From: Ramlibacter agri
GTDB taxonomy: Bacteria; Pseudomonadota; Gammaproteobacteria; Burkholderiales; Burkholderiaceae_C
NCBI RefSeq assembly: GCF_012927085.1
Contig: NZ_JABBFX010000002.1
Coordinates: forward strand, 1,116,001-1,180,000
Direction of reading: 5' to 3'
DNA: 64,000 nt
This document shows, in pieces, positions 14,130 through 62,369 of this stretch (its first letter is position 1; each line of letters opens with the position of its first letter). The notes under the pieces are model-generated. The model saw only the letters and a list, made by a program, of their open reading frames with translations, searched no databases and was not told the origin of the DNA. Both the position numbers and the translations under genes were made by a program.

Positions 14130-14198
14130 TACCTCCTTTTTGGTATGCCTTCTGGAACGGTTGAGGTAGGATTTACCCGAAAGCAGGAGGTCGGGGCG

Positions 14199-32010: not shown

Positions 32011-32020
32011 GGAAAAACAA

Positions 32021-32386: not shown

Positions 32387-32392
32387 ACGAAC

Positions 32393-34201: not shown

Positions 34202-34249
34202 TTACGTAGTCCTGCTGACCGCGACTAGATTCAAGATACGGACACATCC

Positions 34250-34954: not shown

Positions 34955-34968
34955 AGAACAGAGACACA

Positions 34969-35262: not shown

Positions 35263-35281
35263 CATACGTTAGGAAGAACCC

Positions 35282-41023: not shown

Positions 41024-41040
41024 CTCGCACCCGGTGCGAG
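41024..41040. promoter_or_regulatory. Palindrome upstream of the sigma-54 activator gene
   Basis: CTCGCACC and GGTGCGAG flank one base: perfect 8-base arms, 36 bases before the activator ATG. The core CGCACCGGGTG (read on the minus strand) occurs again at 42099-42109, upstream of the sigma-54 promoter of the injection operon. The simplest reading is an autoregulatory site for the activator. Confidence 0.55.
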
Positions 41041-41075
41041 GTTCGCCTGCCAAATGCTGTAGCGGAGGCCCTGTG

Positions 41076-42524: not shown

Positions 42525-44102
<1,578 letters not shown>

Positions 44103-45403: not shown

Positions 45404-46224
45404 ACGCCTTCCTCGCCGGGCTGGTCGATCGGGCGCAAGGGCGCGCGCCCGTGCTGGAGCGCAGGCCGCGTTTCCTGTTCGAGCCGCGGCAGGCTGGTGC
45501 GGGCGGTGTCGAAGTGGTGGAACAGCTGGTGGGTGCCGAGGCACCGCGCGCGCAGGTGCAGGCCGTGCGGGTCGAGCCGCAGCCGGTCGCGCGGGCCGTC
45601 GATCGCCCTGCGGTCCCTCCCGAGGCCCCACTGCTTCCCGCAAAGCACGAGCGCGTCGCTTCGCCACGCGCTCCGGCGCCGGATCGGCCGGGGCTGCCTT
45701 CACTGGAGACACGACCCGGCCCTCGCACGCTGCCTGCAGCGACGGAGCCGTCTCGCCGCGCGCAGTCCAAGCCGCAGCGCGTGCGCGAGCCCGCCCAGGT
45801 CCCCACGCGGCGCACTTCATCCCCCGGCACGGAAACAGCCGTCACCAGGAAAGCCCAGGCCGCCCTCCCCGCCACGACGAGCGAGGCCGCAGTTCGCCCC
45901 GCCATTGCGGCGAAGCCCGCCGCGCCGATCCTGTCGACCGTGCAGCACGTGCACCACCACACCACCGTGCAGGCGCCTGCACGTACGACGTCCGCCACGC
46001 CGTCCCGCGCCGTCCTGATGGCCCGTGCCGCGCAGCCGCCGGCGGCCCGCCGCGACCCGGCGCCGGCCTCCGCGCAACCGGCTCCGGTGCAGATCACCAT
46101 CGGCCGCGTCGAAGTGCGCGCAGTCCCGGCCGCGCAGCCGGATCGACCACGTGCCCCTGCACCGGCCGCGCCGCGCCTGTCGCTGGACGAATACCTGCGG
46201 CGCCGCAACGGAGCCTCGCGATGA
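45400..46224 (+). CDS. Proline/alanine-rich eCIS protein with conserved C-terminal motif
   Basis: The 274-residue protein is mostly low-complexity Pro/Ala/Arg sequence and probably disordered (about 40-225). Ordered ends are a short N-terminal helix (MNAFLAGLVDRAQGRAPVLE) and the C-terminal PVQITIGRVEVRAV followed by LSLDEYLRRR, a pattern seen in several eCIS loci at this position. A His-rich patch (VQHVHHHTTV) stands in the middle. Its job is unknown; it could be a linker or chaperone for cap or sheath assembly. It overlaps both neighbours by 4 bases. Confidence 0.8.
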   Translation: MNAFLAGLVDRAQGRAPVLERRPRFLFEPRQAGAGGVEVVEQLVGAEAPRAQVQAVRVEPQPVARAVDRPAVPPEAPLLPAKHERVASPRAPAPDRPGLPSLETRPGPRTLPAATEPSRRAQSKPQRVREPAQVPTRRTSSPGTETAVTRKAQAALPATTSEAAVRPAIAAKPAAPILSTVQHVHHHTTVQAPARTTSATPSRAVLMARAAQPPAARRDPAPASAQPAPVQITIGRVEVRAVPAAQPDRPRAPAPAAPRLSLDEYLRRRNGASR

Positions 46225-47534
46225 GCAGTGCCCTCGCCATCGCCGCCGTCACGGCCTCGTTGAAGGACCTCCTCAACGACGGGCTGATGGACCACGACCT
46301 GTCCACCGTCGGCAGCTTCACGGTGACCGCGCAGCCGCCGGACCGCGTCACCACCGGCACCACCGAGAACAACCAGCTCAACCTGTTCCTCTACCAGGTC
46401 ACCGCCAACAGCGGCTGGCGCAACGTGGGCCTGCCTTCGCGCGACCGCGCCGGCGAGCGCCTCACCAACGCGCCGCTGGCGCTGGACCTGCACTACCTGC
46501 TGACCGCCTACGGGGCGCAGGACCTGAACGCCGAAGTCCTCCTGGGCTACGCGATGCAGGTGCTGCACGAGACCTCGGTCCTCACGCGCGCGCAGCTGCG
46601 CACGGCGCTCGGCTCGCCGCCGCCGGTCGATGGCTCGCTGCTGCCCGGCCCCTTCGGCTCGCTGTCGGCCGTCGACCTCGCCGACCAGGTGGAGATGATC
46701 AAGGTGACGCCGGTGTTCCTCGGCTCGGAGGACCTCTCCAAGCTGTGGACCGCGATGCAGGCTCGCTACCGGCCCTCGATGGCTTACCTGGTCTCCGTCG
46801 TCCTGATCCAGGCCCAGGGCCCGGCCCGCTCGGCATTGCCTGTCATCAAGCGCGGCCCGGCCGACCGCGGCGCGACTGCGCATGGCGCGCCGGCTCCGAC
46901 CCTCATCGGCGCACGGGCCGCGGCGACGCCCTTGCAACCCGCGCTGCGCCTGGGCGAGGACCTGCTGCTCTCGGGCACCAATCTCCTGAGCAACAGCACG
47001 CTGGCGGTGCGATTCGAGCAATCGCGGCTGGCCGTCGTGCAGACGCTGACGCCTTTGCCCATCGACGCCCAGCAACTCGGCGTGCACCTGCCCAGCATCG
47101 CCGAGGTTGCCAGCGGCATGGCGGACTGGGCGGTCGGCGTCTACGCGGTGTCGCTGACGATCAGCGATCCCGGCCAGCCTTCCTGGACGACCAACAGCGT
47201 GCCGATGGCGCTGTCGCCGCTGATCACCGTCAGTCCGCTCAATGCCGCTGCCGGCACGCTCAATCTCACGCTGACCTGCACGCCACGCCTGCGGACCTCG
47301 CAGGAGTCTTCCGTGCGGCTGCTGTTCGGGGATACCGAGGTGCTGCCGGCGACGGTCAACACCCCGGTCAATCCGGCGCTGCCGACGACGCTGACCTTCG
47401 CCGTGCCGGGCGTGGTGGCAGGCGACTACGTGCTGCGCCTGCGCGTCGAAGGCATCGACAGCCTGCCGGCCGTCTACACGGGTTCGCCACCGAGCTTCGA
47501 GTTCGACACGCAGCAAACGGTGCATGTGACATGA
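46221..47534 (+). CDS. eCIS tail terminator/cap protein (DUF4255, Pvc16-like)
   Basis: A 437-residue protein. Residues 1-190 match DUF4255/Pvc16_N, the cap that ends tube and sheath growth (ALAIAAVTASLKDLLNDGLM, NQLNLFLYQVTANSGWRNVG, LDLHYLLTAYGAQDLNAEVL). The rest is a beta-rich C-terminal part with Ig-like look (about 250-435), longer than in Afp16. It overlaps the AAA+ gene by 4 bases. Confidence 0.92.
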   Translation: MSSALAIAAVTASLKDLLNDGLMDHDLSTVGSFTVTAQPPDRVTTGTTENNQLNLFLYQVTANSGWRNVGLPSRDRAGERLTNAPLALDLHYLLTAYGAQDLNAEVLLGYAMQVLHETSVLTRAQLRTALGSPPPVDGSLLPGPFGSLSAVDLADQVEMIKVTPVFLGSEDLSKLWTAMQARYRPSMAYLVSVVLIQAQGPARSALPVIKRGPADRGATAHGAPAPTLIGARAAATPLQPALRLGEDLLLSGTNLLSNSTLAVRFEQSRLAVVQTLTPLPIDAQQLGVHLPSIAEVASGMADWAVGVYAVSLTISDPGQPSWTTNSVPMALSPLITVSPLNAAAGTLNLTLTCTPRLRTSQESSVRLLFGDTEVLPATVNTPVNPALPTTLTFAVPGVVAGDYVLRLRVEGIDSLPAVYTGSPPSFEFDTQQTVHVT

Positions 47535-49654
47535 GCGCCGAAACCTGGGTCGAAGACAACAACCGCTACCTGGCGGCCTCGCTGAAGTGGCTGCGCATGC
47601 GGCTGCAGCAGCTTGCCCCCGCACCGGCGGCTGCGCCGGCTCCCATGGCGGTGGTACCCGTCGCCGCCGCAGCGCCTGCGGCCACGGGCCCGCGCTCCTG
47701 GTTCCCGCCGCGGACGCCCGCCGCGGCGGCGGCCGCCGCGGCGGGCGTCGAGCCCGTGGCTTTGCTGTCCGGCCAGTCGCAGGCCGACGTGCTGAAGCAG
47801 GCCGCCGAGGACCGCGAAACCGCAGCCGCCAGTGACCCGCCGCCCGCGCTGGTGCTGCTTGCGCAGCGCTTCCGGCTGACCGCCTTCGAGCGCGACACAT
47901 TGCTGCTATGCGCCGCCCCGGAGTTCGATCCGGCGCTGGCCCCGCTCCTTGCCGCCGCGCAAGGACACCCATCGCGCAGCGCGCCCACGTTCGCGCTGGC
48001 GCTGCAGGCCTTCGAGGCGCTGGACGAGCGCGCCTGGGACGCCCTGTCGCCCCAACGTCCCCTGCGCTACGCGCGCCTGCTGGAAATCACGCAAGCGGGC
48101 GCCACGCCGCTGACTGCGAGTGCGCTGCGTGCCGACGAGCGCATCGTCAACTACCTCAAGGGCCTCAACGTGCTCGACGAGCGGCTGGCGGCACTGATGA
48201 AGCCGGCCAGTGGACCGCCGCCCGTGCTCGCGGCCTCGCAGCAGGCCACCGCCGACGAGATCCTGCGCCGGCTGGGCATCACCGCCAGCGAATCCACGGT
48301 GCCGCTGGTGCAGTTGCTGGGCCCGGACGCCCGCAGCAAGTTCGCTGTCGCCCGCCAGGTCTGCAGCGCGCTCGATCGCCAGCTCTTTCGCCTGAACGCA
48401 GACGCGCTCCCGACGCAGCGCGCAGAGCTGGAGACGCTCGCACGCCTGTGGCAGCGCGAATGCGTGCTGTTGCCCGTCGCTCTCTACATCGACGCGGAGC
48501 AGATCGATGGCGGCCGCTCCGAGCCCGCCCTGGCTTTCGAGACCTTCGTGGGCCGCGAACTCGGACTGGGGTTCGCCGGCCGGCGCGAAGCCCCGACGCG
48601 CGCCGCCGCCGCCAGCCTGGAGATCGAGGTCGACAAGCCGACCGGCGTGGAGCAACACGATGCCTGGCGCGAAGCCTTGCACGGCACGCTGGCCGACGAC
48701 GAGGCGGAAGCGACGGCGCGGCTGCTGGCCGGCCAGTTCGACCTGGACCTCGACGAGATCCGCGTAACCGCCGCGCAGGCCGCCACGCCGGCGCCTGGCG
48801 TGAGCCCCGCCGCCACGGTGTGGGCCAGCTGCCGGGCGCTGGCGCAGCCCAGCCTCGACCAGCTCGCGCAACGCATCGAGCCCAAGGCCACCTGGGACGA
48901 GCTGGTGCTGTCCGACGAATCCCTGCGCCTGTTGCGGCAGATCGCCGCCCAGGTGCGCGAGCGCTACCGGGTCTACGAGGAATGGGGCTACGGGCGGCGC
49001 ATGACGCGCGGCCTGGGCATCAACGCGCTGTTCGCCGGCGAGAGCGGCACCGGCAAGACCATGGCCGCGGAGGTCATTGCCAACGAGCTGCAGCTGCACC
49101 TGTACCGCATCGACCTGTCCGCTGTGGTCAGCAAGTACATCGGCGAGACCGAGAAGAACCTGCGCAAGCTGTTCGACGCCGCCGAACAGGGCGGCGCGAT
49201 CCTGTTCTTCGACGAAGCCGATGCGCTGTTCGGCAAGCGCAGCGAGGTGAAGGACAGCCACGACCGCTACGCCAACATCGAGATCAACTACCTGCTGCAA
49301 CGCATGGAGGCGTTCAGCGGCCTGGCCATCCTGGCCACCAACATGAAGAGCGCGCTGGACCCGGCCTTCATGCGGCGGCTGCGCTTCATCGTCAACTTCC
49401 CCTTCCCGGGCCCCACCGAGCGCCGGCAGATGTGGCAGAAGGCGCTGCCGCCCGAAGTGCCGCAGGAGGACGTGGACACGGCGCGGCTCGCGCGATTCAA
49501 CGTGTCGGGCGGCAACATCCACAGCATCGCGCTGAACGCCGCCTTCATGGCGGCGCAGCGCGGCTCCGCCGTCAGCCAGGCCATGCTGCTGGCGGCGGTG
49601 CGCAACGAGCTGCGCAAGCTGGACAAGCCGGTCAACGAGGCGGAATTCCGGTGA
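47531..49654 (+). CDS. eCIS AAA+ ATPase (Afp15/Pvc15-like)
   Basis: A 707-residue ATPase. The N-terminal part (about 1-450) is Ala/Pro-rich and then helical, with a degenerate first AAA-like fold (LVQLLGPDARSKFAVARQV). The C-terminal AAA+ domain has Walker A GESGTGKT (503-510), Walker B ILFFDEADALFGKR (about 556-569), sensor 1 LAILATNMKSALDPAFM and the Arg finger in MRRLRFIVNFPFPG. Afp15-type ATPases are needed for particle assembly and have been suggested to act in loading or disassembly. It overlaps its neighbours on both sides. Confidence 0.95.
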   Translation: MSAETWVEDNNRYLAASLKWLRMRLQQLAPAPAAAPAPMAVVPVAAAAPAATGPRSWFPPRTPAAAAAAAAGVEPVALLSGQSQADVLKQAAEDRETAAASDPPPALVLLAQRFRLTAFERDTLLLCAAPEFDPALAPLLAAAQGHPSRSAPTFALALQAFEALDERAWDALSPQRPLRYARLLEITQAGATPLTASALRADERIVNYLKGLNVLDERLAALMKPASGPPPVLAASQQATADEILRRLGITASESTVPLVQLLGPDARSKFAVARQVCSALDRQLFRLNADALPTQRAELETLARLWQRECVLLPVALYIDAEQIDGGRSEPALAFETFVGRELGLGFAGRREAPTRAAAASLEIEVDKPTGVEQHDAWREALHGTLADDEAEATARLLAGQFDLDLDEIRVTAAQAATPAPGVSPAATVWASCRALAQPSLDQLAQRIEPKATWDELVLSDESLRLLRQIAAQVRERYRVYEEWGYGRRMTRGLGINALFAGESGTGKTMAAEVIANELQLHLYRIDLSAVVSKYIGETEKNLRKLFDAAEQGGAILFFDEADALFGKRSEVKDSHDRYANIEINYLLQRMEAFSGLAILATNMKSALDPAFMRRLRFIVNFPFPGPTERRQMWQKALPPEVPQEDVDTARLARFNVSGGNIHSIALNAAFMAAQRGSAVSQAMLLAAVRNELRKLDKPVNEAEFR

Positions 49655-49914
49655 AGGCCGAACGCCCCGTCGCCCTGCACATCGAGCGCCTGGTGCTCGA
49701 GGGCCTGGGCTTCACGCCGGCGCAGGGCGCGCTGGTGCAGCGGGCGATGGAACGCGAGCTCACCCGCCTCGCGGCACGCCCGGGCCCCTGGCAGGCCGGG
49801 GCCCAGCGCGTGGCCGCTGCGCCGGCATTGCGCCTGGCCGGGCCGCCGCAGCCCGCGCGCGTGGGCCGCGAACTGGCACGCAGCCTGTTCGCGACCTTGC
49901 GGGGCGCCCCATGA
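49651..49914 (+). CDS. Small conserved eCIS protein upstream of the DUF4157 giant
   Basis: An 87-residue protein starting at GTG 49651, overlapping the AAA+ stop (GTGA). It has a hydrophobic N-terminal motif (VALHIERLVLEGLGF) and a C-terminal RVGRELARSLFATL. Similar short frames sit before DUF4157 genes in other eCIS clusters. It may be an adaptor or chaperone for the DUF4157 proteins, a suggestion based on position alone. Confidence 0.75.
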   Translation: MKAERPVALHIERLVLEGLGFTPAQGALVQRAMERELTRLAARPGPWQAGAQRVAAAPALRLAGPPQPARVGRELARSLFATLRGAP

Positions 49915-52900
49915 GCCAGCGCGCGCTTGCCCCGGCCAAGCCGGCGCCGGTGCTGCGGCCGGTGCCGGTCGCGGTGCGGCAGCAGGCCCAGGAAGCAGCG
50001 CTGCAGGCCGAGGAACGCGAGAGCGCCGCCAACGCGCCCTTCCCCCACGGCGGCCTGCCCTTCACCGCGCTCGACCCGCGCCCGCCCGGCCGGAACATTG
50101 CCGATGCCGACCTGGCCCGCATGCTCGTCACGCGCCTGCTGCTGGACGAACTGGCCCCGCGGCTCGGGCTGGACCCCGCGCGCATTCGCATCGAGGTGAA
50201 CGCGGGCGCCGAGGCACGCGTCAATGCCGCCGGCGCCAGCGGCCTGCAGGAAGGCGCGACCATCTACCTGCACCCGGCCCGCTTCCGGCCGCAGGACCCG
50301 CAGGGCCGCTACCTGCTGGCGCACGAGGCGGTGCACGCCGCCCAGCGCGGGCTGGGCGGAGCGGTCCGGGTGGAGGAAGCGGAACGCGAGGCCGCCGAAC
50401 TGGGGCAGGCCTTCGCGCAAAAGCGGGCGCTGCGACGCCCGCAGCAGCCCCTGGGCCTGGCACCGGCCGCGGACAGCGGCGAAGAAGCGCCGCCAGTCAC
50501 GGTGGACGATTCGATCCAGCTGGTGAGCACCAGCGTGGTGGCCGAGAGCCGCTCGCGCGAGATCTCGGAAATCCGCAAGTCGCTGGCCGGCCTGTGGATC
50601 TCGGATGGCGACGTCTTCGACGTGCTGCGCATCCTGGACAGCGTGCCCTTTGCCGTCGCCAGCGCGATCGTGCGCAGCCTGGACGAAGGCGATCGCTACG
50701 GCCTGGCCGACAACATCAACCCGCCGCACGTGTACCAGAACCGCCGCTCGGTGCTGGTGTGCTACTACCACACGCTCGACGACAACCGCCTGCAGGATGC
50801 GGTGGACCTCAAGGTGTTCCGCGCCCTGCCCATCTCCGGCATGTCGACCGAGGAGACCGAAGCGGCCGCCTGGACGCTGCGGCACCTGCAGGACAAGCAA
50901 CGGCAGGAACTGCTCGAATCGGACAACGGGCCGGCGATCAAGCGCATCATCTCGGCGCCGCAGCCCTCGGCCGAGGAACTGCGGCGCATCCAGAAGGACG
51001 CCACCGAAGCCGCCGCCAGCGAGGCGGCGCTGGCGGAGAAGCGCAGGGCCATCCTCGCGCACAAGACAGACCCGGCGGCCAACACACTCCTGCAGCAGGT
51101 GCGCAGCCTGCTGGCGCCGCCGTCCTCGGACAACAGTGACCAGCAGCCCGCCGGCCAGCTCGCCATCCAGGCGCTGGACCTGCTGGATGGCGCGCGCGGG
51201 AACGAGTCGCTGTTCCTCTACGTCGCCGAGCAGATGGAGCTGGAGACGCTGGTCGACCAGCTGCTGGACCTGCTGCCCGCCGACAGCTACTTCGACAAGC
51301 CAAGCCATTCGGCGACGCTCATCGCGCTGGTGCGCTCGCGCCTGCCGTACAAGAACGAGAAACTGGTCGAAAGCCTGTTGTCCTATGGCCTCTTCGATTG
51401 GGCCATCCGCGATTACGAGGCGCTGTTCGCGTACAAGCTGCTCAAGCTGATGCCGCTGGCGCAGCAGTACAAGTTCCGCCTGCGCGACAGCGGCAAGTGG
51501 TACCTGCGGCTGCTGGAGAACCTGCCCGACGACCAGCGCTATCCCGGCCTGGAGATCCGCGTCGCCGAAAGCCAGCGCGAGCTGGACGAGATGAAGGCGA
51601 AGTACCAGGCCTTGAAGCCGGACGACGCAGGCGGCCTTGGCGTGGAGGAAGTCAAGGAGAACGGCGAGACCAGGCTGTTCTTCAACGCCTCGCAGCTCTA
51701 CGAAGCAAAGCTCGAAAAAGACCCGGGCGCCAAGACCACGCTGGCTGCGCTGCTCACCGACTTCAAGGAGAACAAGAAGGAGGCCACGGAGCTTTACAAG
51801 GAGCTGGTGCTGCTGGGCGGCTCCTCGCTGGAGAAGGGCAAGGAAACGCCGGGCGACGAGTTGCTGCGCGCCTCCATCATCCACGAGCTCGATGGCCTGG
51901 GCTACATCGACCGCCTGTTCGGGGACCTGAAGGACAGCTTCCTCTTCGCCGAGGAAAACCGCATCAGCACGGTCAAGATCATGCTGGCCCGCGACCCGGC
52001 GCGTGCGCAGGCGCATGCACGCGAGCTGGTTAGCCGCAGCTTCACCGACTGGATGGTCACCGACAAGGAAGCCTACCTCGCCTACCTGTGCGTGAAGGCG
52101 CTGCCGGCCGACGAGCGCGAGGCTTTCGTGCGCGACAACGCCACGGAGTGGGAGCGCATCCAGGGCGAGATGAGCGAGTCCATGCGGCAGTCGCGGGACC
52201 TCAATCTCTATATCGGCGACAAGGCCGGTACCGACCGCGGATCGGTGCTGGGGCAGCTGGCCGAGTCGGCGACCTGGACGGAGCCGAACGCCGCGCTGCT
52301 GGGCGACCTGGTGCGCATGGCCATCGCGATGACCGAGCACCGCTTCGCCTTCGAGCGCTCGCAGGAATTCAAGGCGATCGAGAAGCCGAAGCTGCAGCCG
52401 CTGGTCGAGAAGTACCGCCTGTGGGACCCGCAGAAGCGGCCCGAATACAAGGCGGACATCCTGCAGGGCACGCGCTGGTACGAGGAAGGCATCTTTTCGG
52501 ACCTGCGCACCTTGTGGTCCGGCCTGGTCACGCTGTGGAACCTGGACGTCCTCTTCATCGAGAACAAGATCGGCCTCAAGGTCGACCTGAACGACGTCCA
52601 GAGCTTCAAGGGCGGCGACCTCGGCGGCGCCCGCCTGGGCGACCCGAAGAAGCAGGGCGCCAGCGCGACGCCGCCCGGGCCGGACGCCAACAAGCTCACC
52701 TTGCTGGTCGGCACCGACATGAAGTCGGCGGAACTGATCCTGCCGGAGCTGCTGATCGACTCGGCGAACGTGCAGCTCGCCAGTACCACGCTGCAATCGG
52801 GCGCGATCAACCTCAAGGGCTTGCACATCCACGCGGCCTACGACCAGGAAGACCTGGGCCAGCCGACGCAGGCGCACGTCTCGCTGCAATCGGTGGAAGC

Positions 52901-55900
52901 CAACGACGTGCTGATCGCCAAGAGCAACAGCATGATCACGGTGACCCGGCTCGCCGTCAGCATGCTGCGGCTGGCGGCCGGCACCATCGACACGGTCACC
53001 GGCGGCACCAAGGAACGCCAGGGACGCTCCGTGCCCTTCCCGCTGCTGGTGGTGCCGCTGCTGGCCATGTTCGTGCTGCTGGCATTGCCGATCTACCTGT
53101 ACAAGAAGATCGCCGGCTGGGTCAGCGAGGGCCTGGAGTCCAATCCCGCGGAGAAGTTTGCCGGCGACGTCGCGACCCGCACCAAGGCCATCGACTTCAG
53201 CTTCGACAGCCTGGACGTCGACAGCATCACCACCAGTGGCGGCCAGCATGTGGGCCACGTCGGCGTGCGCGACTTCGCCGTGCGCCTTGGCTTGAACAAG
53301 GCCACCCGCCTGCGCGCGGAGCTGGCCTCCATCGCCCAGCGCCTGAAGGCGCTGGAGGGCCAGCCGCAGGCCGGCGAGGCGGTCGCCAAGCTGAAGGCCC
53401 GCCAGGCCGTGCTCGTGGGCCAGCAGCAGCAGGTGGAGAAGGACGAACAGGAGTACCTGCAGATCCAGCAGCAGATCCTGGCCGGCGGCCTCTCCGCGGA
53501 GCAGCAGGCGAGCTTGCAGAAGCGCCTGAATGCGCTGGATTTCGAGGACAAGGGCGGCGCCTTCATCGACATCGGCTCGGTCGACGCCTCGGACGTGCGC
53601 GGTACCGTGACCAGCGAGGAGCCCATCCACCTCTCGGGCATCCATGGCGAAGGCGGCAGCGCCGTGCTGACGCAGATGGTCGCGCTGCCGACGGCGACGG
53701 CGGCGGAGCTGTCGCGCCGCTCGGGCGCGGGCGAGCGTCCCGCCGCGCCGCTGAGCGGCCAGGACGGCACGGTGTCGCTCGAGATCGACACCGTGCACAC
53801 CGGCAGGATCTCCTTCGGCGGCGGCCTGCAGACCGTGGAAGACATCGACCAGAAGATCAAGGACCTCGAGCCGCTGAAGGCCAAGGAGGAAGTCGCCCCG
53901 CTCCTCGACAGCCTGCACACGCTGCGCGGCCTGGCCGAACGCTACGAGCTGATGCTGCGCCACGGCGTGTCGGCGCTCAGCGGCCCGCAGCTGGAAGAGT
54001 TCCGGGTCTTGCGCGAACAGCTGCGCGCGAAGGCCAGCCTGGTCGCCCAGTCCATCGACCTCACGCACGCGAAGATCGATGTCGACGTCGCCACCGGCCG
54101 CATCGGCGTGGGCGCCGAAGCCGTGCGGCTGGCCGGCGTGCAGCTTCCCGACAAGGGGATCGACATCGACGAGGTCGTCGCGCGCGGCCTGGGCGTGGGC
54201 GCCCTGCCCGCCGGCGGCCTGCTGAAGTGGGGAGAATGGAAGAAGAACCTGCAGGACGCCGACGGCAAGGTCGACGAACTCACCGTTTCCGGCGTGCGCA
54301 GCAAGTACCACGGCCTGCTGTTCGAGAAAGCGACCTTGACCGGCGCCTACGCCAGGATGAAGGACCGCGGCGACGTGCTCGAGGCGGGCCTGAAGAAGCT
54401 GACGGTGGAAGGCCTGGGCGTCGCGCCGCGCATCGGCCTCCTGAACCAGCGTCTCGCGGGCCTGCAGGAAAAGGCGAAGCTGGCCGACGACAAGCAGAAG
54501 CCGGTGATCGAGGCTGAGGTCACCAAGCTCGCCGGCAAGATCGCCGAACTGCAGGCCTTGCAGGACGCGCGCGTCGCGGCCTACCGCCGCCTCGAAGCGG
54601 CCAAGACGCCGGAAGACATCGAGGCGGCCAAGGACGCGGTCGCCGAATCCGACACCGCGATCGCCCTCGGCCTGGCGCAATACGGCGCGTCGAGCGCCGA
54701 GCTGGACGACTTCGGCGTCAAGGTGACCGGCGCCGGCGACGTGGTGACCGACATGCTCGGCTCCGGCCTGGACGTCGACCGCATCCTCAAGCGCGGCGTG
54801 CGGGTCCAGGGCACGGGGCCGGACAACCGCGTGCTGCGCCGCCTGAAGGTCAGCGGCGCCAATGCCAAGGACGACCAGGCTGACAGCAGCTACGTCGGCA
54901 AGGGCGACTTCGAGCTCGGGGAGACGAAGCTGAACCTGCACGCGCAGCGCGTCGGGGACTCGGCCTTCATCGACCTCGACCAGTTCGGCATCGCCTCCCT
55001 CACGCTCGCGCAGATGCTGTTCACCACCGACGAGGCCGGCGTCGGCTTCCAGGTGGGTTCCACCGGCAAGAGCAGCATCGAGGACGTGAGCCTGAGCGGC
55101 AAGGTGCGGCTGGACAAGAAGCCCAAGGTCGAAGGCGAAGGCAAGTTCCCGCAGGATTTCCGCTTCGCGCATGCCGAGATCACGGACCTCCACGTCGGTG
55201 CGATCCGCGCCGACGGCCTCAGCTACGCCAGCATCCCGGACCAGATCGAGGTGCGCATCAAGTCCGGCTCCGTCGAAGGCGTGTGGGCGCAGGGCGTCTC
55301 CATCGATTTTCCGGAGGACGGGGGCAAGACGTCCATCCTCGGCTCGGCCGGCATCGACAAGATCAGCGATGTCGACATGTCCGCGGCGCTCGCCGACGGC
55401 ATGGTCCGCCATGCCGACGGGCGCATCAGCGGCAAGAAGCTGCAGTTGGACTTCCTGAAGGAAGGCGAGCTCCAGGCAACCATCGGCGACCTGAACGCCA
55501 ACGCCTTCTCGCTGCGCGGGCCGGATGGCTGGGCGCGCTTCGACCTGAACCACCTGTCCGGGAAGATCGGCATCAAGGGCGGCAACTACGCGCTGAAGGA
55601 CGTGCACCTGGGCAGCCTCTCGGTCAAGGGCATCGACTGGGCGGTGGGCGAGAAGGGCCGCGTGAAGGCCGACAAGCCCGCGACCCTGGCCAACCTGCGC
55701 GTCACCGCGGACATCGCCACCGAGCAGGTCCCGGACAAGGACGCCAAGCCCGCCGCCGACGGCACGCCGGCGAAGAAGACCCAGCTGCAGAAGGTGAAGG
55801 TCAAGGACTTCCACATCGACACCATCCAGGCGGAACACCTGATCTACCAGGACGACAAGGTGAAGGTGGAGATCAAGCCCTTCGACCCGGCGACCGATGC

Positions 55901-58079
55901 CGCGACGATGAAGGACTTCCGCCCGCTGTACCTGCAGGACTTCAGCATCAAGGACCTGGACTGGTCCCGCGGCGGCGGCCTCACCGCCGGCGACATCGAC
56001 GTCAAGAAGTTCGACGCCGCGGTGCACTTCGAGCGCTTCAAGGACGGCCTGAAGGCCGGCTTCGCCCTCAAGGGCGTAGACATGGGCACCAGCTTTGTCG
56101 GCCCGGACATGCGGGTGATGAGCCTGGGCGTCATCGAGAAGACCGGCGGCTACCTGAAGGACAAGTCGCTGGACACCACCTTCGGCACCGGGCAGGTGGT
56201 CGGCGCCGTCACCTTCGGCAAGGACTACATCGAACTCACCGGGCTGCAGGTCGATGCGGCCTACCTGGGCAAGACCACCTACACCAGCGACGACGGCAAG
56301 AGCCTCGTGCTGGATTCGGCCAACGTCGAGAAGATCACCCTGGACAAGGTGCACGCCAACTTCGAGACCGTGAAGGACGAGGACGGCAAGGACACGCAGC
56401 AGCTGAAGGACCTGAGCCTCGAGAACCTGGAATTCACCGGCATCAAGGCCGGCAGCTTCGACTACCACGGCAAGGCCAAGGCCGTGAACGACAAGGGTGA
56501 GGAAGGCGAAGTCACGCAGGGCATCCGCGGCTGGGGCGCGACCATCGGCCGCTTCCAGGTTTCCAAGCTGACGCACGACCAGAAGTCCAGGCTGACGAAA
56601 CTGAGCTTCGAGCTCACCGCCCGCGACAAGGACAAGTCCAAGCAGGCCTTCACCGCGACCGGGTTGTCGGGCGACATCATCAAGACCTTCGGCAAGAAGA
56701 CGACTGTCACCTCCTTCGCGACCGACGTCGACGGCGACGCCATCTACGGCGACGACATCCAGCTGAAGACCGTGTCGCTCGGCAAGGTGAAGAAGGCTGA
56801 TGGCAGCTACGCGCCGGTGGAGCGCACCGCCATCGACGGCAAGTTCATCCTCAATCGCATCGGCCTGATCAATCCCAACCTCACGCTGACCGACGAGGAC
56901 GGCAACACCACCAAGGTCTCGACCTACTACGACGGCGGCTCCTTCGGCCGCATCGACATCAAGAACATCCAGCCGCAGCTGCTGCCCAATGGCGCGGCGG
57001 TGGTGCCCATCCAGTCCATCCTGGCCCAGCAGCTCAAGATCACGCGCGGCGGCACCGCGGTCTACATCCCGCTGGCGGAGCTGCAGGATTTCAGCATGGG
57101 GCTCAAGGGCATGGGCACCGACAAGGGCGTGGAGCTGATCGTCGCCCGCGCGAAGAAGCTGCTCCTCGGCAAGGGCCTGGAGGTGGTGATCTCGGTCGAT
57201 CGCACCGAGAAGAGCAAGGCCGTGTCCGCGCACGACCCGGGCCCGAAGTTCATGGCCGGCGACCCGCTGGGCAAGATGAGCGGCCAGTTCGACATCGAGT
57301 ACGAGAACACCGGGCCGAACGCGTGGCTGCACCTGCCGGTGTCGGGCGGTGTGCTGAACTTCGAGAACGTGCATCCCTTCGCGGTGAACCTGGAACAGGG
57401 CGACAAGCCCGAGGAGGCGAAGCTCACGCTGGGCAACTACGGTTCCCTCTACGACATCGTCACCGTGCCCAAGACGGGCGGCATGCATCCGGAACTGGGC
57501 AAGTACGGCAAGATCGACTTCCAGGAGATGCTGGAGACCATGCTCACCGACACCGGTGCAGCGAAGGACGCCAAGAGCGGTCCCCCGGGCGACCTCTCCA
57601 AGCTGAACAACCTCACCGCCGGCGGCCACCTGACGCTGGGCGAAGGCCGCATGGGCTACGACCTCGACGGCGACGGCAAGCTGGGCGAAGGCGACAACTA
57701 CATCGAGCTCAGCGCCGCGGACTCCAAGGACAACACCGTCGACATCCCGAGCCAGGTCGTGGGCAAGGAGCTGGCTGTGAACATCCCGCGCGTCCACGCC
57801 AAGGGCGCCGGCTTCAAGGTGGGCGAGCAGACCGGCAAGACCGGCGAGATCAACTTCAACGACATCAGGATCACCGTCACCGGGCTCGCGAAGTTCGAGT
57901 TCGTGGTGCGGGTGAAGGTCAAGTCCGGCGAAGTGGACGACATCGAGTTCGGCGACGTCACCTTCCTCGACGCCGGCAAGCTCAATACCGCCGACGCCGT
58001 GGACCGCGCCAAGGTGAAGGCCCTGCCCGACCCGACGCTGAAGCAGGTCAACCCCAAGGGCGAGGAGGGCGCGCCATGA
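49911..58079 (+). CDS. Giant DUF4157 protein of the eCIS operon (2,722 residues)
   Basis: The N-terminal domain (about 60-160) is an eCIS-associated DUF4157 with a zincin-like HEAVH (138-142, in LAHEAVHAAQRGLGG). A long helical part follows (about 200-880). One strong membrane-type segment lies at 1042-1064 (FPLLVVPLLAMFVLLALPIY). Coiled coils appear near 1128-1210 and 1506-1590. From about 1600 to the end the protein is a long series of beta strands with AsmA/TamB-like spacing (SLSVKGIDWAVG, FSIKDLDWSRGG, NLEFTGIKAGSFDYHG). No known toxin domain is visible. It overlaps both neighbours by 4 bases (ATGA). It could be a giant cargo, an envelope-spanning anchor or a lipid-contacting groove protein; none is proven. 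Confidence 0.9.
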   Translation: MSQRALAPAKPAPVLRPVPVAVRQQAQEAALQAEERESAANAPFPHGGLPFTALDPRPPGRNIADADLARMLVTRLLLDELAPRLGLDPARIRIEVNAGAEARVNAAGASGLQEGATIYLHPARFRPQDPQGRYLLAHEAVHAAQRGLGGAVRVEEAEREAAELGQAFAQKRALRRPQQPLGLAPAADSGEEAPPVTVDDSIQLVSTSVVAESRSREISEIRKSLAGLWISDGDVFDVLRILDSVPFAVASAIVRSLDEGDRYGLADNINPPHVYQNRRSVLVCYYHTLDDNRLQDAVDLKVFRALPISGMSTEETEAAAWTLRHLQDKQRQELLESDNGPAIKRIISAPQPSAEELRRIQKDATEAAASEAALAEKRRAILAHKTDPAANTLLQQVRSLLAPPSSDNSDQQPAGQLAIQALDLLDGARGNESLFLYVAEQMELETLVDQLLDLLPADSYFDKPSHSATLIALVRSRLPYKNEKLVESLLSYGLFDWAIRDYEALFAYKLLKLMPLAQQYKFRLRDSGKWYLRLLENLPDDQRYPGLEIRVAESQRELDEMKAKYQALKPDDAGGLGVEEVKENGETRLFFNASQLYEAKLEKDPGAKTTLAALLTDFKENKKEATELYKELVLLGGSSLEKGKETPGDELLRASIIHELDGLGYIDRLFGDLKDSFLFAEENRISTVKIMLARDPARAQAHARELVSRSFTDWMVTDKEAYLAYLCVKALPADEREAFVRDNATEWERIQGEMSESMRQSRDLNLYIGDKAGTDRGSVLGQLAESATWTEPNAALLGDLVRMAIAMTEHRFAFERSQEFKAIEKPKLQPLVEKYRLWDPQKRPEYKADILQGTRWYEEGIFSDLRTLWSGLVTLWNLDVLFIENKIGLKVDLNDVQSFKGGDLGGARLGDPKKQGASATPPGPDANKLTLLVGTDMKSAELILPELLIDSANVQLASTTLQSGAINLKGLHIHAAYDQEDLGQPTQAHVSLQSVEANDVLIAKSNSMITVTRLAVSMLRLAAGTIDTVTGGTKERQGRSVPFPLLVVPLLAMFVLLALPIYLYKKIAGWVSEGLESNPAEKFAGDVATRTKAIDFSFDSLDVDSITTSGGQHVGHVGVRDFAVRLGLNKATRLRAELASIAQRLKALEGQPQAGEAVAKLKARQAVLVGQQQQVEKDEQEYLQIQQQILAGGLSAEQQASLQKRLNALDFEDKGGAFIDIGSVDASDVRGTVTSEEPIHLSGIHGEGGSAVLTQMVALPTATAAELSRRSGAGERPAAPLSGQDGTVSLEIDTVHTGRISFGGGLQTVEDIDQKIKDLEPLKAKEEVAPLLDSLHTLRGLAERYELMLRHGVSALSGPQLEEFRVLREQLRAKASLVAQSIDLTHAKIDVDVATGRIGVGAEAVRLAGVQLPDKGIDIDEVVARGLGVGALPAGGLLKWGEWKKNLQDADGKVDELTVSGVRSKYHGLLFEKATLTGAYARMKDRGDVLEAGLKKLTVEGLGVAPRIGLLNQRLAGLQEKAKLADDKQKPVIEAEVTKLAGKIAELQALQDARVAAYRRLEAAKTPEDIEAAKDAVAESDTAIALGLAQYGASSAELDDFGVKVTGAGDVVTDMLGSGLDVDRILKRGVRVQGTGPDNRVLRRLKVSGANAKDDQADSSYVGKGDFELGETKLNLHAQRVGDSAFIDLDQFGIASLTLAQMLFTTDEAGVGFQVGSTGKSSIEDVSLSGKVRLDKKPKVEGEGKFPQDFRFAHAEITDLHVGAIRADGLSYASIPDQIEVRIKSGSVEGVWAQGVSIDFPEDGGKTSILGSAGIDKISDVDMSAALADGMVRHADGRISGKKLQLDFLKEGELQATIGDLNANAFSLRGPDGWARFDLNHLSGKIGIKGGNYALKDVHLGSLSVKGIDWAVGEKGRVKADKPATLANLRVTADIATEQVPDKDAKPAADGTPAKKTQLQKVKVKDFHIDTIQAEHLIYQDDKVKVEIKPFDPATDAATMKDFRPLYLQDFSIKDLDWSRGGGLTAGDIDVKKFDAAVHFERFKDGLKAGFALKGVDMGTSFVGPDMRVMSLGVIEKTGGYLKDKSLDTTFGTGQVVGAVTFGKDYIELTGLQVDAAYLGKTTYTSDDGKSLVLDSANVEKITLDKVHANFETVKDEDGKDTQQLKDLSLENLEFTGIKAGSFDYHGKAKAVNDKGEEGEVTQGIRGWGATIGRFQVSKLTHDQKSRLTKLSFELTARDKDKSKQAFTATGLSGDIIKTFGKKTTVTSFATDVDGDAIYGDDIQLKTVSLGKVKKADGSYAPVERTAIDGKFILNRIGLINPNLTLTDEDGNTTKVSTYYDGGSFGRIDIKNIQPQLLPNGAAVVPIQSILAQQLKITRGGTAVYIPLAELQDFSMGLKGMGTDKGVELIVARAKKLLLGKGLEVVISVDRTEKSKAVSAHDPGPKFMAGDPLGKMSGQFDIEYENTGPNAWLHLPVSGGVLNFENVHPFAVNLEQGDKPEEAKLTLGNYGSLYDIVTVPKTGGMHPELGKYGKIDFQEMLETMLTDTGAAKDAKSGPPGDLSKLNNLTAGGHLTLGEGRMGYDLDGDGKLGEGDNYIELSAADSKDNTVDIPSQVVGKELAVNIPRVHAKGAGFKVGEQTGKTGEINFNDIRITVTGLAKFEFVVRVKVKSGEVDDIEFGDVTFLDAGKLNTADAVDRAKVKALPDPTLKQVNPKGEEGAP

Positions 58080-59338
58080 GCCGGGTGCAGCAGTTCCTCC
58101 GCAGCCGCCGGGCCGGCGACGCCTCGCCGGCACGCACGCAGCAGCCGGCCGCCGAGCGCGATGCCACGCAGCAAGGCGCCCAGTGGCTGGCCGGCGGCGG
58201 CGACTTCAGCAACGTGCGACTGCACGCCGATGCCGACGCCGCGCACCAGGCCGACGCCGTGGGCGCGAGCGCCTTCGCCCAGGGCCAGGACATCTACTTC
58301 GGCGCGGGCAACTTCGCGCCGGGCACGCCGGCCGGCCTGCAGTTGCTGACCCACGAACTGGGCCACGTGCAGCAGCAGGCGAGCCAGGGAGCCGGCGTGC
58401 AGTGCCAGCCCAAGGACCAGAAGGCCGGCATCGGCGCCTCGCCGCCGGAAGAAGACTTCATCCGGGACCCGGACAACTGGGGCGCCGAAGACGGCAAGGT
58501 GCTGTTCGAGCAGGACGATGCGGCGCTCGACGGCGGCGACGAGAAGGCCATCGGCGACCTCGCCGCGAAGCAGAAGCAGGCGATCTACGTGCACGTGCAC
58601 GGCTACGCCAGCCTGGAAGGGCCGGCCGGCTACAACCTGAACCTGTCCGCGCACCGCGCCGTCGCCGTCAAGCACCTGCTGGAGTCGCTGCTGCCGGCGG
58701 GCTCCAAGGTGTTCGTGTTCGCGCACGGCCAGAGCAAGCACTTCGGCCCCGCCGGCAACAACCGGCGCGCCGGCATTTCGCTGATGGGACCGGTGGCGGA
58801 CGGCGGCTACAAGCCCAAGCTGAATCTCGGCCTGCAGTTCGACCTGACGCCGCCGCAGTTGCCAAGCGGGACGCCGGGCGTGGTCGTCGTGCCGGCACCC
58901 GGCCTGGGCAGCACCGGCGTGCTGCCCGGCGGGCCGCTGGCGCCCCGCATCACCGACCCGGCGCCGGTCACGCCCTGGCTGGTGGCGCCGCCAGTCATCA
59001 CCACGCCGCGCCACCTGATGGACAACGCCGGCCTCCTCGCGCCCAGCACCTTCCACGGCGTGTCGCCGGGCACCACCGGCAACGTCGTCGAGCAATGGGA
59101 CTCGGCCTACCTGAAATACAAGGGGCTGGGCATCCCCGACGAACTGAAGCTGGGCCCCATCGACCTCGGCGCCGGTGCGCTCGCCAACAAGGAAGTCACC
59201 AACAGCATCCAGGCCTACCACGAGCGCAACGACCCGACCCCGATCGAGCAGTCGAACCAGGAGGTCGGCGCGCACATCATCACCTCGCCGAACCTCCTGG
59301 ACCTGCTGCCGAAAAAGAAGAAGGACAAGGCCAAATGA
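58076..59338 (+). CDS. DUF4157 and OmpA-like domain protein
   Basis: A 420-residue protein. Residues about 30-105 are DUF4157 with the zincin motif LLTHELGHVQQQ (His at 93 and 97). Residues about 160-250 resemble an OmpA-type peptidoglycan-binding domain (VHVHGYASLEGPAGYNLNLS, HRAVAVKHLLESLLPAGSKV). The remaining C-terminal half is Pro-rich, then basic at the very end (LPKKKKDKAK). It directly follows the giant with a 4-base overlap, so two DUF4157 proteins stand in tandem. It might be cargo, or tether the particle to the cell wall. Confidence 0.88.
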   Translation: MSRVQQFLRSRRAGDASPARTQQPAAERDATQQGAQWLAGGGDFSNVRLHADADAAHQADAVGASAFAQGQDIYFGAGNFAPGTPAGLQLLTHELGHVQQQASQGAGVQCQPKDQKAGIGASPPEEDFIRDPDNWGAEDGKVLFEQDDAALDGGDEKAIGDLAAKQKQAIYVHVHGYASLEGPAGYNLNLSAHRAVAVKHLLESLLPAGSKVFVFAHGQSKHFGPAGNNRRAGISLMGPVADGGYKPKLNLGLQFDLTPPQLPSGTPGVVVVPAPGLGSTGVLPGGPLAPRITDPAPVTPWLVAPPVITTPRHLMDNAGLLAPSTFHGVSPGTTGNVVEQWDSAYLKYKGLGIPDELKLGPIDLGAGALANKEVTNSIQAYHERNDPTPIEQSNQEVGAHIITSPNLLDLLPKKKKDKAK

Positions 59339-59991
59339 GCAGCTTCCCCCCCAACACCCCCCGGCTGCTGCGCGGCGGCCTCGTGCTGGTGGACCCGACC
59401 ACCGGCGCGGTGCTGAAGATCATCGCGCTGCAATACAACCCCGACACCTTGACGCGCAGCCTGCAGATCAAGGCCGCGAGCGCCGACACCGGCGACCACC
59501 TCGAGGCGCTGCGGCTCAAGGGGCCGCCGGTGGAGACGATCAAGGTGGAAGCGGAGATCGACGCCACCGACTCGCTGGAAGGCGGCGACTCGCAGGCCTT
59601 GCAGTCGGGGCTGCATCCGCAGCTGGCCGCCATCGAGACCCTCGTCTACCCGAGCAGCGCGCACCTGCAGTCGGTGAACAGCGAAGCCTCGGGCGGCTCC
59701 ATCGAGATCGCGCCGGCGCAGGCGCCGCTGCCGCTGTTCGTGTTCGGCCCCAAGCGGATCGCGCCGGTGCGCATCACCGAGCTGTCGATCACCGAGGAAG
59801 CCTTCGACGCCGCGCTGAACCCGATCCGCGCCAAGGTGAGCCTGGGCCTGCGCGTGCTGACCGTCGACGACCTGGGCTTCGAGGCCAAGGGCGGCGGGCT
59901 GTTCATGAGCTACCTGCAGGCGAAGGAGCAGCTGGCGCAAGGCGCGCCCGGCGGCAGCTTCGCCCTGCTCGGGATCAACGGCATTCCCTGA
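59335..59991 (+). CDS. eCIS tube-initiator protein (Afp7 N-terminal part)
   Basis: A 218-residue protein of the contractile injection system tube family: IIALQYNPDTLTRSLQIKAA near the start, GPPVETIKVEAEIDATDSLE in the middle, and LPLFVFGPKRIAPVRITELS. In Afp and PVC the matching protein (Afp7) also carries a LysM domain that sits between tube and spike. Here LysM is encoded by the next gene instead, so Afp7 is split in two. It overlaps the previous gene by 4 bases. Confidence 0.9.
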   Translation: MSSFPPNTPRLLRGGLVLVDPTTGAVLKIIALQYNPDTLTRSLQIKAASADTGDHLEALRLKGPPVETIKVEAEIDATDSLEGGDSQALQSGLHPQLAAIETLVYPSSAHLQSVNSEASGGSIEIAPAQAPLPLFVFGPKRIAPVRITELSITEEAFDAALNPIRAKVSLGLRVLTVDDLGFEAKGGGLFMSYLQAKEQLAQGAPGGSFALLGINGIP

Positions 59992-60002: not shown

Positions 60003-60329
60003 ATGGCCACCACCTTCAACTTTCCGCCGACCAGTCGCTATTCCGGGATCGAGTTGGTCACGCTGGTCCTGGCCGATGGCGAGCAGCGCATCTACCTGCG
60101 CCGCCGCTTCCTGCCGCCCTCTTCCAGCTTCGCGCTGCTGCGCATGCACCTGGTCGCCGATGGCGAGCGCCTGGATCGCATCGCCGCCGCGGAAGTGGGC
60201 GATCCCGAGGCCTTCTGGCGCATCTGCGACGCCAACGACGCGATGCGTCCCGATGCGCTGACCGAGGTAGCCGGCCGGCGGCTGCGCATCACGCTGCCCG
60301 AAGGCATCCCCGGGCCCTCGCTGACCTAA
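60003..60329 (+). CDS. LysM-like baseplate protein (tail protein X / Afp7 C-terminal part)
   Basis: A 108-residue protein. The C-terminal half resembles the LysM/tail-X fold: LRMHLVADGERLDRIAAAEV, DPEAFWRICDANDAMRPDAL, then RRLRITLPEGIPGP. In related systems this domain is fused to the tube-initiator encoded just upstream. It probably clamps the hub to the first tube ring. It lies 11 bases after its partner and 6 before the hub gene. Confidence 0.85.
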   Translation: MATTFNFPPTSRYSGIELVTLVLADGEQRIYLRRRFLPPSSSFALLRMHLVADGERLDRIAAAEVGDPEAFWRICDANDAMRPDALTEVAGRRLRITLPEGIPGPSLT

Positions 60330-60335
60330 GACGCC

Positions 60336-61463
60336 ATGCTGCAAGGCATCCACCTCACCTTGATGATCGGGCCGGCCGTGCCGGTGCCGGCGCCGAAGGC
60401 GGTCGTCGATGCGCTGCGCACCGTGCAGGTGACTTCGGGCAAGGACAAGACGGGTTTCCAGCTCACCTTCGCCGTGGGCAAGAACTCGCCGCTGCAGACG
60501 ACGCTGCTGCCGGCCGGCTACTTCGACCCCATCTCCACGCGCGTGCTGCTGATCGTGACCCTGGGCGGCTTCCCCAACGTCATCCTCGACGGCATCGTCA
60601 CGCGGCAGGAGATGTCGCCCAGCAGCGAACCCGGGCAGTCGACGCTCACCATCACCGGCGAGGACCTGAGCGTGCTGATGGACATCATCGAGATCAAGCG
60701 GCCCTTCATCGCGCTCGACGACACGCTGACCCTGTACGAGGTGCTCGCGCCCTACGCGGCCTTCGGCGTGGTGCCGCTGGTGCTGCCGCCGATCTTCACC
60801 TACATCACGCCGCCCACCGAGGGCTGGAAGACGCAGACCGGCACCGACCTGCAGTTGATCAAGAAGATCGCCAACGCCAACGGCTACGTGTTCTACGTGG
60901 AGCCCGGGCCGGCGCCGGGCGCCAGCATCGCCTATTGCGGCCCCAACATCCGCATCCCGGTGCCGCAGCCGGCGCTGTCGATCAACATGGACGCGCAGAC
61001 CAACGTGGAGTCCATGAGCTTCTCGCTGGACGGCCTGGCCAAGGAAGTGATGATCGTGACGGTGATGGACCCCATCACGCACAAGATCCCGCTGCCCATT
61101 CCGATCCCCAACATCAGCATCTTCCAGCCGCCGCTGGGCGCGCGGCCCACCCTGCCCTCCAAGGTGCGCTTCGCGAAGAACGTGGCCGACAAGTCGGTGC
61201 CCGAGGTGCTGAACGACGTGGTGGGCGAACTGCTCAAGGGCGCGGCCAACGCGATCACCGTGAGCGGCTCGCTCGACGTACTGCGCTATGGCCAGGTGCT
61301 GCGCTCCAAGCTGCTGGTCGGCGTGCGCGGCGCCGGCCTGGCCTACGACGGCCTGTACTACGTCGACAGCGTCACCCACAACATCCAGCGCGGCCAGTAC
61401 AAGCAGAGCTTCCAGCTCAGTCGCGATGGCCTCATCTCCAACACGCCCAAGGTGCCGGTATGA
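60336..61463 (+). CDS. eCIS spike hub (gp27-like, Afp8 N-terminal part)
   Basis: A 375-residue protein matching the late control D/gp27 part of the spike: IHLTLMIGPAVPVPAPKAVV, TSGKDKTGFQLTFAVGKNSP, and PGQSTLTITGEDLSVLMDII. The end LYYVDSVTHNIQRGQYKQSF is typical for hub proteins. In Afp8 and VgrG this part is fused to a gp5-like OB fold, but here that is a separate overlapping gene (ATGA at 61460). A trimer would form the symmetry adaptor of the baseplate. Confidence 0.92.
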   Translation: MLQGIHLTLMIGPAVPVPAPKAVVDALRTVQVTSGKDKTGFQLTFAVGKNSPLQTTLLPAGYFDPISTRVLLIVTLGGFPNVILDGIVTRQEMSPSSEPGQSTLTITGEDLSVLMDIIEIKRPFIALDDTLTLYEVLAPYAAFGVVPLVLPPIFTYITPPTEGWKTQTGTDLQLIKKIANANGYVFYVEPGPAPGASIAYCGPNIRIPVPQPALSINMDAQTNVESMSFSLDGLAKEVMIVTVMDPITHKIPLPIPIPNISIFQPPLGARPTLPSKVRFAKNVADKSVPEVLNDVVGELLKGAANAITVSGSLDVLRYGQVLRSKLLVGVRGAGLAYDGLYYVDSVTHNIQRGQYKQSFQLSRDGLISNTPKVPV

Positions 61464-62002
61464 GCGACAGCAGCAGCCAGGACGACAAGTACTACGGCAT
61501 CTACCAGGCCACGGTGACGCTCAACGTCGACCCGATGCTGCGCGGCCGCCTGCAGGTGATGGTGCCCGACGTGCACAGCTTCATCCCCACCACCTGGGCC
61601 GAACCCAGCGTGCCGCTGGCCGGGCCGAGCGGGCCGCCGATGGGCGTGTACATGGTGCCGCCGCCGGGCGCGGGCGTCTGGATCATGTTCGAGCACGGCG
61701 ACTCCAACAAGCCGGTGTGGATGGGATGCCGCTGGGGCCTGCCCAGCGACATCCCGCCGCTCGCGCTGCTGGGCAACCCCGCCGACCCCAACATCTGCTT
61801 CCAGTCGCTGCTGCAGCACACGCTGATGATCAGCGACATGCCGCCCTCGCCCGTCACCGGCGGCATCATCCTGAAAAGCACGACGGGCGCGATGATCGTC
61901 GTCAACGATTCGGGCATCTACATCTCGAACGGCAAGGGCGCGATGATCACGATGATCGGCCCCAGCATCGACTTCAACGTCGGTGCCCTGACCATCACCT
62001 GA
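61460..62002 (+). CDS. eCIS spike OB-fold protein (gp5/Afp8 C-terminal part)
   Basis: A 180-residue gp5-type spike. The OB fold is seen as DDKYYGIYQATVTLNVDPML, GRLQVMVPDV and GVWIMFEHGDSNKPVWMGCR. The C-terminal part (MISDMPPSPVTGGIILKSTT, GAMIVVNDSGIYISNGKGAM) is a short beta helix that would form the trimeric needle. It has no lysozyme domain. It overlaps the hub gene and is followed by the PAAR-like tip. Confidence 0.92.
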   Translation: MSDSSSQDDKYYGIYQATVTLNVDPMLRGRLQVMVPDVHSFIPTTWAEPSVPLAGPSGPPMGVYMVPPPGAGVWIMFEHGDSNKPVWMGCRWGLPSDIPPLALLGNPADPNICFQSLLQHTLMISDMPPSPVTGGIILKSTTGAMIVVNDSGIYISNGKGAMITMIGPSIDFNVGALTIT

Positions 62003-62014
62003 GGAGACGCCGCC

Positions 62015-62362: not shown

Positions 62363-62369
62363 GCCCGCC

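Follow-up and report, generated by a model that had tools for sequence, protein, structure and literature searches.

The window analysed here, a 64,000-nucleotide stretch of the Ramlibacter agri genome (contig NZ_JABBFX010000002.1, positions 1,116,001 to 1,180,000), carries an extracellular contractile injection system (eCIS) cluster in which one gene encodes a 2,722-residue protein headed by an eCIS_core (DUF4157) domain. This protein (hereafter, the giant) is best read as an exchangeable payload whose design resembles that of the Streptomyces effector Tme, rather than as a tape measure or a fixed envelope anchor. That it is a payload as such appears probable; the fuller reading, in which an exchangeable giant eCIS payload docks to the particle, is released and acts on membranes through its beta body, is given a probability of about 0.55. 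The giant belongs to an intact and conserved family, has a fixed position and overlaps with neighbouring genes, lies in a slot whose content varies between related clusters, has a relative at an alternative position at a cluster 3' end, and is predicted to contain many long beta strands. A preliminary description, made from the sequence alone, had left cargo, envelope anchor and lipid-contact device side by side; cargo is favoured by the changing content of the slot and by the relative found at a 3' end.

A variable slot in a conserved chassis

The genes downstream of the giant, from the hub gene to the J-type baseplate genes, were present as the same set and in the same order in all six other family loci, and the upstream sheath, tube, T4_baseplate-type, Pvc16 and ATPase genes in all four family loci reaching that far, where the 274-residue gene was detected in three and the small gene in two (L025 and L026, which match the DUF4157 part only, were excluded, and L057 is the L024 locus itself). 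Related clusters were sought with the hub protein in the phylum to which the Bryobacter locus L024 belongs (396 genomes), and 16 matches in 15 genomes resulted; with L024 itself excluded, 15 loci were compared. The slot between the ATPase and hub genes holds the giant in one of these (L072), other DUF4157 proteins in eight, 4.9 kb without DUF4157 in one and merely 335–391 bp in five, where about 15–20 kb was read per cluster and those with empty slots may hold payloads elsewhere. The empty-slot loci L079 and L080 have one TGA within the hub match. In L081, a 1,581-codon frame with no Pfam match (10827–15572) occupies the slot and is possibly another payload. Among frames of at least 100 codons in the other loci, no match to the helical or beta profiles of the giant was found at E 0.01, the sole exception being the giant's own end in the locus from its own genome.

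A VgrG search in 398 genomes of the phylum of Ramlibacter gave matches in seven other genomes, and five loci were read (the weak G643 and G649 were left out). The slot contains two DUF4157 genes in one of the five and none in four; the hub was undetected in two of the latter, for which the following gene was taken as the slot boundary. On a Streptomyces anthocyanicus plasmid (the one read of two Streptomyces plasmids, the other being H5), the ATPase, small and hub genes adjoin, leaving the slot closed, and a 2,456-residue relative with HExxH is encoded behind the DUF6519 gene, at the cluster's 3' end. On a Novosphingobium resinovorum megaplasmid, a relative in a 2,475-codon frame fills the slot and is followed by a second DUF4157 gene. 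Clusters with the same chassis may thus carry another gene in place of the giant, lack it or have it elsewhere, as would be expected of a payload and not of a length ruler. The toxins of eCISs tend toward the 3' end of their clusters (PMC8213781; here and below, papers are cited from the part of their text available to us). The variable slot between ATPase and hub is a place to look for further payloads in this cluster lineage.

Two neighbours of the giant deserve mention. Of the six giant loci tested, three (the window, L024 and L072) have an OmpA domain in the second DUF4157 gene, and L020, L022 (Lysobacter enzymogenes ATCC 29487) and L023 do not. OmpA domains are of a peptidoglycan-binding type, which suggests that this partner protein may bind peptidoglycan. 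The small gene of about 87 codons at 49651–49914 was detected in 7 of the 15 related clusters, of which six carry a different payload, and possibly encodes an adaptor.

Gene, family and N-terminal half

The giant gene is a single intact frame of 2,722 codons with zero internal stops. A minus-strand frame (49632–58133, 2,833 codons) is likewise open across the entire gene; the plus-strand frame was accepted because it is the one with a Pfam domain and with homologous proteins, and the antisense frame probably arises from a G+C content as high as 67%. ATGA overlaps join the gene to both neighbours, at 49911 and 58076, in agreement with translational coupling, and the one at the stop codon recurs in 7/7 other loci. 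The gene spans 8.2 kb; the cluster covers 21.5 kb inside the window and about 30 kb when followed through the DUF6519 gene, which lies past the window end behind the J-type baseplate genes. Sheath, tube, ATPase, Pvc16 and baseplate genes all around the giant identify the locus as an eCIS (Table 1); the AAA ATPase is, judging by position, presumably of the Pvc15/Afp15 type.

The main homologue search scored only the 7,984 best candidates, and its counts are therefore lower bounds. At least 57 homologues were found, including proteins of Lysobacter enzymogenes, Granulicella arctica and metagenome-assembled genomes of Burkholderiales and Sphingomicrobium, and 45 of the 57 listed measure 2600–2830 residues. 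A search from the most distant match (Antribacter gilvus) added at least eight proteins, including those of Cellulomonas sp. Root485 and Microbacterium deminutum; judged from these protein matches, there is a diverged actinobacterial branch, and the relatives of the giant span at least three bacterial phyla. HExxH is present within the first 400 residues in 52 of the 57 listed homologues (the remaining five, of 1903–2387 residues, lack it), and its residues are invariant in a 10-member alignment covering both branches. In its own genus, the giant was found in 1 of 60 genomes, with the head domain alone in five others; among 369 genomes of its class, only its own has a full-length match, and nine others match the head domain. 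The family is thus real and conserved, yet rare.

PF13699 (eCIS_core, DUF4157) matches residues 79–146 with an E value of 1.8e-9 (38 bits, cut-off 22), the HExxH being H138, E139 and H142, and no second Pfam family scored above its cut-off in the giant. The disordered segment preceding the head is a possible loading signal. In the AlphaFold model of residues 1–1190 (mean predicted local distance difference test score (pLDDT) 78.7), the head is followed by a solenoid-like helical region, for which matches to karyopherin/armadillo-type proteins were weak (best E 0.013). A sub-threshold match to T6SS_Tse3_N (PF22120), the N-terminal domain of a type VI secretion system (T6SS) muramidase, covers residues 484–504 (51360–51425; 17.3 bits, cut-off 27.2), and this family was matched in 6 of 17 members scanned, at best with 1.8e-8. 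There is a single outstanding hydrophobic segment at about 1040–1064 (19-residue family mean 2.31, compared with 1.18 for the runner-up elsewhere), covered by an AlphaFold helix at 1043–1070 with low confidence there. The preliminary description, which had read a DUF4157 protein in an eCIS cluster, translational coupling at both ends, a gene taking a large share of the visible cluster, a long helical part and one membrane-type segment, is borne out in all of these; the more than 1,000 residues of beta strands that it had placed from residue 1600 onwards are also confirmed by the models, with the correction that strands start near residue 927. The coiled coils that it also listed are putative, those at residues 1191–1599 falling between the two modelled stretches.

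Table 1. Features of the giant and its cluster. Coordinates are those of the window unless a locus is named.
Feature	Coordinates	Strand	Basis or remark
Giant DUF4157 protein	49911..58079	+	2722 aa, 294 kDa
Residues 1–58, disordered segment preceding head	49911..50084	+	pLDDT 31–44 per ten-residue block, residues 1–60
Residues 59–175, eCIS_core, zincin-like head	50085..50435	+	HExxH 138–142
Residues 200–835, solenoid-like helical region	50508..52415	+	AlphaFold model (helices ~198–834)
Residues 927–1024, first beta strands	52689..52982	+	77% strand
Residues 1043–1065, predicted membrane-type helix amid beta strands	53037..53105	+	low model confidence
Residues 1093–1126, strands following membrane-type helix	53187..53288	+	AlphaFold model
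Residues 1130–1190, helices breaking up beta part	53298..53480	+	AlphaFold model (1130–1148, 1152–1189)
Residues 1645–2430, 33 strands of at least 8 residues	54843..57200	+	predicted model
Residues 2431–2722, C-terminal part	57201..58076	+	found in nearer members only
eCIS sheath	42525..44102	+	PF04984/PF17482
eCIS tube protein	44122..44646	+	PF06841
T4_baseplate-like protein	44669..45403	+	PF12322
274-aa gene	45400..46224	+	no Pfam match
Pvc16/Afp16-like protein	46221..47534	+	PF14065
AAA ATPase with winged-helix domain	47531..49654	+	PF00004, PF22977
Small 87-aa gene, ATPase/giant interval	49651..49914	+	no Pfam match
Second DUF4157 protein, with OmpA domain	58076..59338	+	PF13699, PF00691
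Second DUF4157 gene with OmpA, locus L024	17875..19188		
Second DUF4157 gene with OmpA, locus L072	14314..15660		
Tube-initiator/hub-type protein	59335..59991	+	PF19266 below cut-off (21 vs 27 bits)
LysM-like, PAAR-like, VgrG N part, Phage_base_V and gp25 genes	60003..62726	+	LysM-like and PAAR-like named by eye; VgrG N part by match to annotated VgrG/Pvc8 gene
First J-type baseplate gene	62742..64000, continues beyond window	+	named by position/similarity, no Pfam match

A gene for a sigma-54 activator ATPase with a Fis-type helix-turn-helix (41034–42068) lies directly upstream of the sheath gene, and its product may control the cluster. The cluster is flanked by sdh and citrate synthase genes (named by eye) on one side and by aconitase-type, isocitrate/isopropylmalate dehydrogenase and semialdehyde dehydrogenase genes on the other (window 31579–36592 and L004 13364–18057). 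These metabolic genes are usually near each other in Burkholderiales; lying between them, and with the giant in 1 of 60 genomes of the genus, the cluster looks like an island.

The C-terminal beta region and the proposed function

The predicted model of residues 1600–2722 (1,123 residues; mean pLDDT 86.8, predicted template modelling score 0.69) is 66% strand, with 39 strands of at least eight residues (median length 17) and no more than six residues between 23 of 28 adjacent long-strand pairs. In residues 1641–2430 (54831–57200), hydrophobicity follows a pronounced five-residue rhythm, with an autocorrelation at lag 5 of 0.27 (standard error near 0.036). The pattern h.h..h.h..h.h occurs there in 20 stretches, and 1000 shuffled sequences gave 2.6 on average and 12 at most; the lag-5 value is lower, from 0.08 to 0.16, in four distant members. 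Odd/even strand amphipathicity is unimpressive (22 of 39 strands exceed their own shuffled mean), a test that is weak here because a five-residue rhythm would break it. The C-terminal part is conserved less than the head, and residues 2431–2722 found no match in P0054–P0058 or in the Streptomyces and Novosphingobium proteins. The structure prediction proposed in the preliminary description returned long strands with mostly short turns and did not contradict the continuous beta groove suggested there; an open groove is putative.

A pentapeptide or other parallel beta-solenoid was set aside, short of proof, given the median strand length of 17 and the mostly short turns; no such solenoid appears among the best 50 of 614 Foldseek matches. 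An internal duplication is not claimed: self-comparison gave E 1.1e-8, yet the beta region matched its own reversed profile at 2e-7, an inflation that limits all profile comparisons alike.

The fold search, also proposed earlier with AsmA, TamB and VPS13 in mind, gave weak and mixed matches, among those listed LptD, LPD-3, viral chorein-type proteins and ApoB alongside porins and teneurin. LPD-3 has the highest template modelling score (TM-score) among the matches listed, and teneurin heads the Foldseek list by E value, with TM-scores of 0.05–0.08. A sequence search against solved structures and PADLOC gave nothing useful.

In the mechanism that we favour, the disordered N terminus and DUF4157 head would dock the giant at the spike-hub end, together with the translationally coupled second DUF4157 protein, and the giant would be carried in or on the particle. 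Its volume of about 356 nm3 (294 kDa) compares with about 918 nm3 available if the lumen is as large as that of AlgoCIS, which the DUF4157 proteins Cgo1 and Cgo2 fill (PMC8894135). On firing, it would be released at the target membrane, where the single helix would insert and the long beta sheet would serve as a membrane-active trough or bridge, moving or perturbing lipids. We infer loading, ejection, membrane insertion and any lipid contact, and the lipid step is the weakest part of this explanation. That the giant is a true lipid-transfer device is doubtful; the same tentative standing applies to the version in which the particle would place in a foreign membrane a bridge-like protein that transfers or extracts lipids, with an amphipathic beta trough of at least 16 nm, a membrane helix of its own and a fold that arose independently of AsmA/TamB. 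In the papers cited, enzymes and helical proteins resembling tape measures account for many contractile-injection payloads; a conserved payload family consisting mostly of a long beta sheet would, if true, suggest that the target is attacked at its membranes and not by an enzyme brought in, and a payload as large as the giant would test the size limit of a folded protein carried by a particle.

Some features would suit a tape measure or another structural component that sets particle length: the gene is the largest of annotated type in the cluster, lies beside the ATPase gene and upstream of the baseplate genes, its homologues fall in a narrow length range (45 of 57, as above), and a remote homology to tape measures is described for Tme, itself a giant DUF4157 protein (PMC11126660). 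This role is nevertheless very unlikely, as 14 of the 15 slots in the Bryobacter phylum hold something else or nothing, the gene of the Streptomyces relative is found at the 3' end and not in the slot, the predicted model shows beta structure in the C-terminal half, and the sole PHROGs match at E 0.1 is of function unknown (0.096). A device of the producer cell's own envelope, whose helix and groove would anchor the particle or move lipids between the producer's membranes, is unlikely. The finding of Tme with its producer's membranes (PMC11126660), the one membrane-type helix and the OmpA domain of the second DUF4157 gene (3/6 giant loci tested) speak for it, whereas the DUF4157 head is as in particle cargo. 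The diverged branch occurs in Actinomycetota such as Cellulomonas and Microbacterium. These are not known to have an outer membrane of the Burkholderiales kind, and the giant, disordered at residues 1–58, lacks an N-terminal anchor of the AsmA/TamB kind.

The beta body could also be a scaffold or shell, and not a lipid trough, for a toxic part located, for example, at the C terminus. Residues 2431–2722 are matched in nearer members only, conservation of the C-terminal part is below that of the head, and the T6SS muramidase N-terminal domain recurs in the family (6/17); teneurin, whose shell encloses its contents, comes first by E value in the fold search, its TM-scores, however, being just 0.05–0.08. 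No catalytic family scored above its cut-off (Pfam for this protein, NCBIfam for three members scanned), fast divergence alone may explain the lost C-terminal signal, and we regard a scaffold as quite unlikely. The exchangeable payload with a membrane-active beta body is retained as the preferred reading.

Comparison with known groove proteins and DUF4157 systems

The giant shares a long series of strands with AsmA, TamB and YhdP and with the bridge-like lipid-transfer proteins VPS13 and LPD-3, and its beta region has weak fold matches to LPD-3 and viral chorein-type proteins. The likeness to AsmA/TamB named in the preliminary description appears to be one of fold at most. Pfam families of the AsmA, TamB and chorein groups gave no match at E 1 in the 17 family members scanned, and the TamB and AsmA models PF04357 and PF05170, run on the giant's own genome, matched elsewhere and not on the giant gene. 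In profile–profile comparison with TamB and AsmA sets from related genomes, the best E values were 0.1–0.15, whereas reversed profiles reached 0.0011; a control TamB–AsmA pair gave 6.9e-5 with a probability of 63%, so the comparison has modest power and may have missed a distant homology. The five-residue rhythm is shared in part by AsmA and is unlike that of TamB: the lag-5 values are +0.27 for the giant, +0.05 for AsmA and −0.02 for TamB, and the pentad motif occurs 13.7 times per 1000 residues in AsmA (5.6 when shuffled) and 3.6 times in TamB (5.2 when shuffled), as counted in 14 of 15 AsmA and 19 of 21 TamB sequences (two short TamB sequences, of 86 and 94 residues, were omitted). AsmA and TamB carry an N-terminal membrane anchor. 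None was seen in the predicted model of the giant, in which the only membrane-type helix begins at 1043.

Among eCIS effectors, DUF4157 proteins form a recognised class, in which linkers of more than 1000 residues have been noted (PMC8213781), and the domain has been treated as an effector signature (PMC11297309). The preliminary description knew of no described example of the giant's architecture. A search of titles and the opening parts of abstracts, covering few subscription journals, found none for contractile injection with AsmA/TamB, for DUF4157 with lipid transfer or for a Lysobacter eCIS; a giant DUF4157 protein as such has been described in Tme, the tapemeasure-related effector of the Streptomyces davawensis contractile injection system (PMC11126660). 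Like the giant, Tme is encoded by the largest open reading frame of its cluster, upstream of the baseplate genes, and has an N-terminal DUF4157 domain and membrane and coiled-coil segments, the coiled coils being putative in the giant. The giant agrees with Tme-like proteins in relative length, DUF4157 and synteny (Tme being known by its description, not by alignment of the locus), and one gene, that for the second DUF4157 protein, separates it from the hub. Tme differs in being about 70% disordered and in having more than one predicted membrane helix and a remote homology to tape measures; its C-terminal part is an EndA-like nuclease and not a beta series (PMC11126660). The giant has one membrane-type helix, a beta body and no nuclease family: it had no named PHROGs match at E 0.1 as evidence of phage tape-measure homology, and no EndA-like Pfam family was matched at E 1 in 17 members, its C-terminal part being beta.

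Cgo1 and Cgo2 of AlgoCIS resemble the giant in their disordered N terminus, DUF4157 domain and location in an eCIS cluster, and differ in that the available text makes no mention of a long beta body (PMC8894135). In Streptomyces lividans, the large cargo gene of the Sle1/Sle2 pair adjoins a smaller DUF4157 gene, as in the giant locus; the smaller product binds the cargo and is proposed to connect it with the baseplate, and Sle1 is helical and lacks DUF4157 (PMC13277306), a domain that the giant carries itself. The giant family therefore fits the known DUF4157 effector class, within which it differs in having no recognised enzyme and in its long predicted beta body.

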